From contig NW_015971537.1 of NCBI RefSeq assembly GCF_000182565.1, positions 1,213,299-1,277,298 on the forward strand: a stretch of 64,000 bases of DNA, read 5' to 3'. The DNA comes from Spizellomyces punctatus DAOM BR117. Its lineage: Eukaryota; Chytridiomycota; Chytridiomycetes; Spizellomycetales; Spizellomycetaceae. The stretch's first letter is position 1; every line of letters starts with the position of its first letter. This document shows, in pieces, positions 10,133 through 13,330 of this stretch. The position numbers and the translations under genes are program-made. Under the pieces are notes generated by a model. The model was given only the letters and a program-made list of their open reading frames with translations, ran no database searches and had not been told where the DNA came from.

Positions 10133-10250
10133 ACAGTTTGGGAATGGGGTTTTTTTGGTGTGTTGTATTTTTTTTGTTCTTTTTAGATTTTAATACATGC
10201 CCTTGAAAAGAATACTGAATGGGACAATGTTTTTTCAAGAATGAACCATA

Positions 10251-10278
10251 GTGCGGAGCCGGTGGGTATTGGCACTAG
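10251..10278 (+). repeat. Left terminal inverted repeat
   Basis: 28 bp, a perfect inverted match to 12489-12516. It starts immediately after CATA. Confidence 0.95.
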
Positions 10279-10365
10279 TACAGTGATTCCAACCAATTGA
10301 ATCATAATTTTACTCGATTTAGACTCATGAACTATGATTTGATAATGGTTCGATGCACAAACGAT

Positions 10366-10454
10366 GCTCCACCATTAAAAACGGGTCCAATATGTGCGGC
10401 AATGAACGGATTGAATATTCTGCAGTTGCTCCACCATTGAAAAACGGGTCCAAT
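10366..10454 (+). repeat. Direct repeats in the Fanzor upstream region
   Basis: 10366-10391 and 10428-10454 share gctccaccatt-aaaaacgggtccaat. A second pair, cccatttcccagg-tttcatc, occurs at 10494-10514 and 10523-10543. These are subterminal repeats of the kind that bind transposase or reflect slippage; role unknown. Confidence 0.7.
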
Positions 10455-10472
10455 GCGCAGTTGTCATATCTC

Positions 10473-10480
10473 TATATAAA
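10473..10480 (+). promoter_or_regulatory. TATA box of Fanzor ORF
   Basis: TATATAAA-like ctatataaaccc, about 85 nt upstream of the ATG at 10565, inside the element. The element therefore appears to carry its own Pol II promoter. Confidence 0.6.
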
Positions 10481-10564
10481 CCCGCCTTCTCTGCCCATTT
10501 CCCAGGTTTTCATCATTCTCTTCCCATTTCCCAGGCTTTCATCCATTTTTCTATTCCAATCATC

Positions 10565-12430
10565 ATGCCACCAAAGAAGAAGCAAAAACTCGACAATCGA
10601 CCTACCTGTCTGCATTCATGCAACAAGACTTCCTTTGCAAAGGCTTTCTTACCTAATGGGACCTACCGGCAGCGTCTTCTAGATTACATCGCCATCATCC
10701 ATCAACTCGCCGACCACGCTTCCCACGCTCTCAAATTCTACATCCTATCTGCACCAACCTTCACCGTGAACGAGGAGACCATCGAAGCAATTCTCTATCT
10801 TCTCAACAAGGGGGAGGCTTGGCATCCAAGAAAGGAAGCAAAGAAGGCATGGCGGGATTGTTTGCTGCCATATGTTCAACGGTACTGCCAAATCGTCGGC
10901 TTCGTTCACCCAAATCTACGAGGCGAGCAGCAATCAGTCAATTACCTGACAGCGAGTATGATGGCGAACCTGAAAGTCAACGTTCAAGAACATTTCATGC
11001 AGATGCTCCTTCGGTATATCAATCTGCGGCTCGACGTGAAGGGACACAAGCAGCGACTGCCACTGAAAAGCGATGCGCGGCAAGCTTTCTTTACTCGGCT
11101 ATGCTACTTGAAGTCAATTTTCCTTTTTGATATTGTGCCCGAGTCACTCGATGACTTGACCGCTGAAGAGAGTGAGCTTCTAGAAGAGATGTGGTCCTTC
11201 ATTCCCCTTTCCGACCAGCCGCTCACATATTCAGTTGCTGTAGACCCTCTCGCCTTCTTCCCTGCCTACTGTCGGTTGTCAAGCCTATATGAAAAGCATG
11301 GATTTCGACGGTTCAGTGCAATCCCACTTCGCCGCTCCCTCATCCAAAGCCATGTGCGGATCGACACCGTCATCCTCTACTCTCATATCCTTTGCATCAC
11401 GCGGCGAGATGCAGAAGCCGTAGCGAAGGTCGATTTATGGATGCGCATCTGCAATCTGCGTACCAAGGCTTTTCGGTCTCGCCACGATATGCAGTTTGAA
11501 GGCTCAATCACAACGGACGGTACCTCAGTGTCTGTATACCTAAAGCACCCAGAAGCTGACAAGTACGGAAAGCGCGGAGCGAGAAAGTCAGCAAAGGCTC
11601 TAGCAGCTGAGGTGAAGGTGCTGTATGTGGAAAACAACTTATCTGCTTGTCAAGAGAACATTGTCGTTATCGATCCAAACAAGCGCGACATTCTCTACTG
11701 CCAAGACAACAAGGGCACCATCTTCCGTTACACCGCCAATCAATGCTGCAAGGAGACTGGAAGCCGTCGATTTGCAAAAGAACGGCAGCGGATGAAAGCT
11801 GGCAGTATTGACCTCATAGAATCACGTATCCCAAGCCACAAGACGATGAACCTCATAGACTTCATGCGTTACCTTCTCGTTCGCTGCGCTGATTGGGATC
11901 GTCGAAAGGACTTCTATTCGCATCCTGCCCACACGCGGTGGAAGTGGCATGCATTTATAAACCGTCAGAAGAGTGAATCGAACCTCATATCCAACTTATG
12001 CAACAAGTACGGTGAAAACTTTACCATTGTGATGGGAGATTGGAGCGATGCCGGTCGAACTGCAAGATTTCAGACCTCATCAAAGACGAAAGGTTGGCGC
12101 ACCCTCTTTAAGTGCAACAGGATCAACTGCTTCCTTCTCAACGAGTATAAAACCTCATCTGTCTGCCCTCACTGTTCATCCGATGACTTCCTTGAAAAAG
12201 GTTTCAAAACACGACCTCATTCAAGACCTTGGCGACGACGAGAAGGCAAGATTGAAAAAGTCCATGGATTGCTGGGTTGTACCAACCCTAACTGTCAGCA
12301 AGCCTGGACGATGCGCTACTGGAATCGAGATACGCTGAGCACCTGCAATATGCTGATAATCGTGCAATCAATGTTGGATGGACACAGTAGACCAGAAGTG
12401 TTCAGCAGGAGTGTTCCAGCCGTAGCTTAG
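10565..12430 (+). CDS. fz: Fanzor, eukaryotic TnpB-like RNA-guided DNA endonuclease
   Basis: Intronless 621-aa ORF, unlike the intron-rich neighbours. The N-terminus MPPKKKQKL is a classical NLS. The middle is the helical REC/WED-like region. The RuvC-I aspartate is D370 in NIVVIDPNKRD. The RuvC-II strand is FTIVMGDWSDAG (about residue 490), where the TnpB-type glutamate is absent. The zinc ribbon uses C534-x2-C537 and C572-x4-C577. The RuvC-III aspartate is D589 in WNRDTLSTCNM. Fanzors cut DNA next to a TAM using an omega-RNA encoded at the transposon's 3' end. The frame is intact and all visible motifs are present, so it is probably active. It strongly resembles, or is, the published S. punctatus protein (from memory). 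Confidence 0.95.
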   Translation: MPPKKKQKLDNRPTCLHSCNKTSFAKAFLPNGTYRQRLLDYIAIIHQLADHASHALKFYILSAPTFTVNEETIEAILYLLNKGEAWHPRKEAKKAWRDCLLPYVQRYCQIVGFVHPNLRGEQQSVNYLTASMMANLKVNVQEHFMQMLLRYINLRLDVKGHKQRLPLKSDARQAFFTRLCYLKSIFLFDIVPESLDDLTAEESELLEEMWSFIPLSDQPLTYSVAVDPLAFFPAYCRLSSLYEKHGFRRFSAIPLRRSLIQSHVRIDTVILYSHILCITRRDAEAVAKVDLWMRICNLRTKAFRSRHDMQFEGSITTDGTSVSVYLKHPEADKYGKRGARKSAKALAAEVKVLYVENNLSACQENIVVIDPNKRDILYCQDNKGTIFRYTANQCCKETGSRRFAKERQRMKAGSIDLIESRIPSHKTMNLIDFMRYLLVRCADWDRRKDFYSHPAHTRWKWHAFINRQKSESNLISNLCNKYGENFTIVMGDWSDAGRTARFQTSSKTKGWRTLFKCNRINCFLLNEYKTSSVCPHCSSDDFLEKGFKTRPHSRPWRRREGKIEKVHGLLGCTNPNCQQAWTMRYWNRDTLSTCNMLIIVQSMLDGHSRPEVFSRSVPAVA

Positions 12431-12476
12431 ATTGGTTAGATTAGGTTTTCCGAGCCGGTTGTCGCCGGTTCAATCC
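12423..12476 (+). promoter_or_regulatory. tRNA-like A box and B box (possible internal Pol III promoter)
   Basis: A box TAGCTTAGATTGG at 12423-12435 fits TRGYNNAR(N2-3)GG. B box at 12467-12476 fits GGTTCRANYC. The gap between them is 31 nt, as in a normal tRNA gene. The D- and acceptor stems do not pair properly, so it is not a functional tRNA. A TTTT at 12445-12448 between the boxes could weaken Pol III elongation. Confidence 0.5.
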
Positions 12477-12488
12477 CTGGTGCGGGTG

Positions 12489-12516
12489 CTAGTGCCAATA
12501 CCCACCGGCTCCGCAC
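12489..12516 (-). repeat. Right terminal inverted repeat
   Basis: Perfect 28-bp inverted copy of the left end, followed by TA. It probably also forms the 3' part of the omega-RNA scaffold. Confidence 0.95.
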
Positions 12517-12518
12517 TA

Positions 12519-13330
12519 AGAATAAACTAGGGTTTGGACAAGTGGGAAATTCCCATAGTGATGCAAAAGTATTCGGTCATTAAACGTCCAATCTACTCTT
12601 TATGTAATGTACCCAGTTGGTACTTCAGATAAGATCGTCTACAAATGTGGGGATAAACTAGGACAACTTTTATCCTAAAATGTCTCCCCATCCCCCACAA
12701 TGATTACGTGATGCATATCAGGATAAGTTTTTTTTCATTCATTTCTTCGGGTGTTGATGTCAAAAGTGTGTACGCGGCGAGCAATGCGGATGACTCTATC
12801 CACCGTCCTCGCCGTATGAGGCTATGTACGTTGTCGAGTATTTTATCGTTGAGAGTTGGAAGAGTCACATGGCAAGGGGGGAGTGTGCATAGCCAATCTA
12901 CCACAGTCTTCTTTTCCCCACATGCCAACAATTTACTGCGTTTGTATGTCATGTTGCATGGTTTGTCGTATTTTTGGTGAAAACTCCGTGAACACAAATG
13001 CATTGTCTCTTTTTGACTCTTTATGCAAAAGGGTTTTTTATTCATGACATCAGATTCGCTCTGAAGTGTTCTTTGCGTGTTTTCTTTGCGTGCGTGCGTG
13101 GGTGAGCGGAAATCTATTTCTTTTGGCATAGTTTTTTTTTTTTTTTCCTTTTTGACGTTGAGGTGTTATTGCTGGATGTGGCCATGCCCTCTTTTTAACT
13201 ATTTTGACGCCATGTGAGATACATGGTTATGCAAATGAAAACTCCATGCTAGTGCGAGCAAAAAAGGAACAAGGCAAAAAAAATGGATTTTTGCATAGCG
13301 TTGCGCACGTTACGGGCCAAAAGTGTATTA
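12519..13330. other. Intergenic between Fanzor element and SOD
   Basis: The first about 15 bases are the predicted native guide. The rest is AT-rich with short frames only; no gene recognised. Confidence 0.6.

Follow-up and report, generated by a model that had tools for sequence, protein, structure and literature searches.

The window, a stretch of 64 kb of Spizellomyces punctatus DNA, contains an intact copy of the already known SPu-1 / SpuFz1 Fanzor transposon of this chytrid, and across the genome the copies of this family normally carry a CA at one side only of ends that otherwise mirror each other. This asymmetry fits a rule set by the TAM of the encoded nuclease, acting via retention or via homing or guided copying, and we hold it highly probable that retention or copying accounts for the window copy as a whole. 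As one of dozens of copies of a described element, the window copy adds one annotated copy. What is contributed beyond the known element is the count of the one-sided CA, a null search for empty sites, and a testable hint on the transcription of the guide RNA; the one-sided CA and the idea that the element brings its own promoter are the two additions that could move the field.

The complete element occupies positions 10249-12518 of the window (all features given here lie on the plus strand). The left terminal inverted repeat is TAGTGCGGAGCCGGTGGGTATTGGCACTAG (10249-10278, 30 bp), and its exact reverse complement, identical in 30/30 bases of the window sequence, forms the right terminal inverted repeat (12489-12518), which ends in CACTA; both element ends are also paired by BLAST, at 97% over 33 nt. 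The 28-bp perfect inverted repeats described in the initial annotation are correct, since 28 bp plus the terminal TA make up these 30 bp. The same annotation placed CATA directly against the left end, where it is indeed found (10247-10250), but the start it gave for the element, 10247, is that of CATA: the CA (10247-10248) is flank just outside the left repeat, the TA is the tip of the element, and the element proper starts at 10249. This CATA equals the TAM measured for SpuFz1. TA is present at both sides of the element, where a duplicated TA and repeats ending in TA would look alike. An ABC-transporter ORF ends 116 bp before the element, and a Cu/Zn superoxide dismutase ORF lies downstream of it. 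Mirror ends enclosing an intact nuclease, recurring at unrelated sites, are not the product of chance.

The nuclease is encoded by an intact, intronless ORF of 621 aa (10565-12430), as had been claimed, and its N-terminus reads MPPKKKQK. A phmmer comparison with solved structures matches it to S. punctatus Fanzor 1 (8gkh) over residues 2-621, and the two proteins are 84.7% identical (621 vs 638 aa). In the alignment with SpuFz1, the RuvC residues D383, E541, and D606 are kept, together with N385, R96, Q129, Q130, N133, R291, Y345, W570, H21, and five C-terminal cysteines, the sole change among the catalytic and TAM-contact residues checked being T22, which is Ser in the window protein. The Fanzor identity proposed from the letters alone is borne out by this match and these residues, and the family is already published. 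Pfam at a threshold of 1e-3 found no family for the window protein. A further copy, L026, codes for a protein that matches the solved SpuFz1 at 100% identity, and the genome is accordingly taken as that of S. punctatus.

The recommended check for further copies with the same ends showed the family to be repeated in the genome. Of 167 first-look candidates the search scored the best 40, with 119 matching pieces listed, and 40 loci were examined, namely the window and 39 fetched stretches; since only 40 of the 167 candidates were scored, the number of Fanzor copies is a lower bound. Frames of 550 aa or more are present in the fetched stretches of 15 of the 40 loci, and 13 of these 15 loci keep D383, N385, E541, and D606, the exceptions being L020 and L036. 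For the nuclease-less ghosts, 41 matches were obtained from the best 40 of 132 candidates, and 22 were fetched. Saito 2023 (PMC10432273) counted 42 Fanzor loci and 134 ghosts for Spu-1. In the element L009 (G000:C17:397200-400400), the body is inverted relative to the first 59 bp, together with its right end and 17 nt of the flank beyond, and the break in the flank lies near the published cut distance of SpuFz1, 16-17 nt, which may be a coincidence. In G000:C14:142600-143600, the left end of the Fanzor copy L011 is preceded, at about 300 bp, by a ghost right end of the same orientation.

The left end could be located in 29 of the 40 loci, and its junction reads CATA in 26, TATA in two (L020 and L047), and is decayed in one (L038). 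The right end was located in 32 loci, 29 of which end in CACTA, the other three being a rearranged one (L021), a masked one (L027), and one with a right repeat of the ghost type (L024). Because the repeats are mirror images of each other, the ends alone should favour CA at the left and TG at the right equally. However, among the Fanzor copies CA stands at the left in 26/29 and its mirror TG at the right in 3/29, and with the readable ghost ends added the counts become 35/39 vs 4/46 (Fisher p 9e-15, a test that takes the copies as independent insertions, their flanks being unrelated where tested). Ghost left ends entered this count only with an intact TAGTG tip, decayed ones being dropped, which applied to 10 of the 22 (nine with CA and one with AA, the latter giving an AATA junction); among right ends outside the main table, 2 of 11 show a TG start. 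Both TATA junctions represent a C to T change from CATA, which could have arisen by mutation after insertion, yet a strict rule is broken. The prediction that other insertions would show CATA at the left junction holds for most copies (26/29) and is departed from at the two TATA junctions and the decayed one, and CATA as the TAM of the S. punctatus Fanzor, as the initial annotation had it, is right for the SPu-1 family and published (Saito 2023, PMC10432273). The one-sided CA beside mirror ends is a genome-wide, experiment-free sign that the TAM of the nuclease governs where copies occur. As a separate observation, the fourth base of the right flank is A in 21/29 Fanzor copies and either A or T in 28/29, which could point to a preference at insertion that extends beyond TA.

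Others have demonstrated the RNA, the TAM, and the cleavage for sister copies, by analogy with which the window nuclease would bind an omega-RNA that joins the final 75 nt of the element to some 15 nt of right flank. The predicted scaffold, placed by analogy with SpuFz1 from sequence and fold only, spans 12444-12518 (75 nt) and folds into two stems (z -3.24), and the predicted native guide, AGAATAAACTAGGGT, comprises the 15 nt of flank at 12519-12533, its length being taken from Saito 2023 (PMC10432273). That the downstream flank serves as native guide, as the initial annotation had it, is right for the SPu-1 family and published in the same work. Loaded with this RNA, the nuclease would cut the chromosome that still has the empty site, where CATA is followed by the right flank, and would spare the occupied site, which reads CACTA before the same flank. 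The 29 tabulated intact right ends all read CACTA before the guide, and the occupied allele is thus without CATA at that place. Repair from the occupied copy would restore the element, so that the nuclease would favour retention or copying. This retention logic, already put forward in the initial annotation, gains from the one-sided CA and from the CACTA at occupied right junctions, and stays conditional, no empty allele having been found. For the window copy we infer its expression, its former empty site, the step from cutting to retention, and whatever first moved the element. What Fanzor does in its host was described as unknown in 2023, and no transposase within the repeats is reported in the available text of the same paper (Saito 2023, PMC10432273).

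The contrary reading, that CATA is part of the left tip of the element and is brought in at insertion, which would leave the empty site without a TAM and uncut, would give an identical junction table, draws on a constancy of CA that nearly equals that of the repeat, and faces no available empty site that could separate the two readings, but it is improbable, given the match to an independently measured TAM, since it fails to explain why that TAM equals the left tip and why the mirror ends, perfect otherwise, do not include the CA. Under retention or copying, the restored empty site of the window copy is deduced to be CATA followed by AGAATAAACTAGG. The initial annotation had claimed this site, which was not confirmed and stays a deduction: the joined junction, searched in the genome with up to 3 mismatches, gave 0 matches. 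The joined flanks of 12 copies gave 24 matches in the genome, each of them one half of the copy's own flanks, and no empty site; these 12 come from the 19 copies that are intact at both ends, a set that includes the window copy.

How the guide RNA is made allows two readings. The somewhat favoured one is that a polymerase II transcript begun at the TATA region, where TATATAA (10473-10479) probably serves the nuclease gene as its polymerase II promoter, is processed, possibly by the nuclease, so that its 3' part yields the guide RNA. This reading is ranked first because a yeast construct in which a polymerase II promoter drove the ORF and the 3' repeat yielded the native RNA (Saito 2023, PMC10432273), even though that construct also holds the tRNA-type boxes described below, if its 3' region is complete. 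The upstream sequence CTATATAAA of the window copy is kept in 13 of the 22 ghosts fetched, and the right repeat of 7 of these 22, read by eye, contains a T5 or T6 run, which is poor for polymerase III. Bacterial TnpB is also described as processing its own mRNA in the available text of PMC10278001. What processing of a polymerase II transcript leaves unexplained is the presence, in Fanzor copies, of tRNA-type boxes at tRNA spacing.

The boxes lie at the right end of the element. The A-box-like sequence, TAGCTTAGATTGG (12423-12435), overlaps the stop codon of the nuclease, over which the right end reads GTAGCTTAGATTGGTTAGA, and the B-box-like sequence, GGTTCAATCCC (12467-12477), lies inside the omega-RNA scaffold, where it is the 3' arm of stem 1; both were detected with box matrices, and their promoter function is putative. 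Twenty-five host tRNA genes with 20 distinct box pairs, the three of the window and 22 fetched ones, served to build the matrices. The right end of the window copy scores 27.8, within the range of 24.2-32.0 of those 25 genes, and its boxes are 44 bp apart, a spacing that is 43-45 bp in 23 of the 25 host tRNAs and 53 and 54 bp in the remaining two. Only four sites reach a score of 19 on either strand of the 64 kb, namely the three tRNA genes, themselves in the matrix, and the right end. In 20 Mb of simulated sequence, nine positions reach 23.5 and one reaches 26, a comparison that overstates significance because the idea arose post hoc and the copies share ancestry. Among 29 Fanzor right ends (L021, L024, and L027 being left out of this table), 28 score at least 20 and 13 at least 23.5, and among 11 further right ends the corresponding counts are 10 and 5, with L086 at 13.8. 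The best local likeness of the right end to a host tRNA, 47.5, was equalled in 0/1000 shuffles, and among 1500 random windows two reached it, each overlapping a tRNA gene.

From these boxes follows the second, tentative reading, which is compatible with retention or copying: in Fanzor-bearing SPu-1 copies, polymerase III would make the guide RNA from an internal tRNA-type promoter, uncoupled from the nuclease mRNA. The element would have taken over such a promoter, with polymerase III starting near the stop codon and reading through the end into host DNA, a course of events that we consider possible and less likely than the processing of a polymerase II transcript. Read-through of this kind would give a guide RNA from any insertion site, independent of the nuclease mRNA. 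In favour of this reading, 18 complete copies agree at an identity of 0.93 over the 13 non-coding bases that precede the scaffold (12431-12443), vs 0.70 at 274 fourfold sites (resampling p 5e-5). However, base 12434, within the A box, varies (0.63), and the near-invariant TTAGATTA just after it could have a role in RNA folding or processing instead of a promoter role. The B box, in turn, coincides with the arm of a scaffold stem. No T run longer than four lies between the A box and guide base 16 in 28 of the 29 copies, which allows polymerase III and does not prove it; downstream, T4 and T8 runs are found at +150 and +210, and the flanks of about 20 bp of the host tRNA genes are mostly without T runs.

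Several results weigh against polymerase III. Strong boxes are no commoner with an intact nuclease (5/12) than in the other copies (8/17), and the SpuFz1 copy itself, L026, scores 22.6 at a spacing of 52 bp. The 20 ghosts scored, all fetched ones except L092 and L104, which have no TTTTCCG anchor, range from -0.1 to 14.3, and would rely on another promoter. A distant Fanzor, L130, scores 7.2. Boxes as a general trait of SPu-1-type omega-RNAs were accordingly rejected. The idea that the right end forms a complete tRNA was dropped as well: ARAGORN called no tRNA there, and Rfam returned none, its one match being a chance snoRNA (E 7.8), so that what remains are the boxes and a moderate overall likeness. 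The scaffold stretch GGTTCAATCCCTGGTGCGGG is matched in 18 and 17 of 20 bases by the 3' ends of two host tRNA-Thr UGU genes, L083 and L084, which hints at an ancestry from tRNA. Neither tRNA nor polymerase III is mentioned for Fanzor RNA in the main text of Saito 2023 or in PMC11423790 and PMC10711439, as far as their available text goes, nor is tRNA in that of the SPu-1 paper (PMC3627910), the subscription and preprint literature lying largely outside this scope. A tRNA-type promoter at the origin of the guide RNA may be new and, if true, would show how a eukaryotic transposon supplies its guide RNA separately from its protein.

The Fanzor copies and the ghosts are linked by L024 and L082, which have a Fanzor body and end in a right repeat of the ghost type (GGCACTGACATTTGTTTTTGCTAATACACTA), as if ends had been swapped between the two groups. 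The distant Fanzor L130 (G000:C7:72800-75500) is 24% identical over 430 aligned columns (E 2e-17) and has an apparent intron; at its right end, CTAGTGACATTTTCTACCACCTGCACACTA, it is similar to the right repeat found in one of the ghost subfamilies, and no matching left repeat was seen.

Among known systems, the closest is SPu-1 itself, whose 2013 description is reportedly due to Bao and Jurka. SPu-1 was described with 17 full-length copies of about 2.1 kb and putative TA duplications, as the first eukaryotic TnpB-like protein found (PMC3627910), and shares with the window copy the host, the single intronless ORF, and the terminal inverted repeats; the paper gives repeats of 33 bp vs the 30 perfect ones of the window copy, and in its available text nothing essential differs. 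SpuFz1 (PDB 8gkh, PMC10432273), for which RNA-guided cleavage next to CATA is published, agrees with the window copy in protein family, catalytic residues, CATA TAM, and the layout of scaffold and guide, reported as 75 nt plus 14-15 nt with CA before the left repeat (Saito 2023), and differs from it in the sequence identity and length given above and in T22. The ghost Spu-1 elements (PMC10432273) are like the window copy in the CA before the left repeat and in a related scaffold and upstream region, whereas they have no nuclease, different repeats, and, in the 20 scored, no A and B boxes. The tRNA-type polymerase III genes resemble the right end in their A and B boxes, at tRNA spacing and with scores in the tRNA range, but the right end has no tRNA fold and its transcript would carry a guide. 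In the bacterial TnpB of IS200/IS605, a nuclease is guided by a right-end RNA and the TAM lies at the insertion junction. Contrary to that system, the window element is eukaryotic, has mirror repeats, and has no transposase known from the available literature; like it, it combines a guide RNA from the right end with a TAM at the junction.
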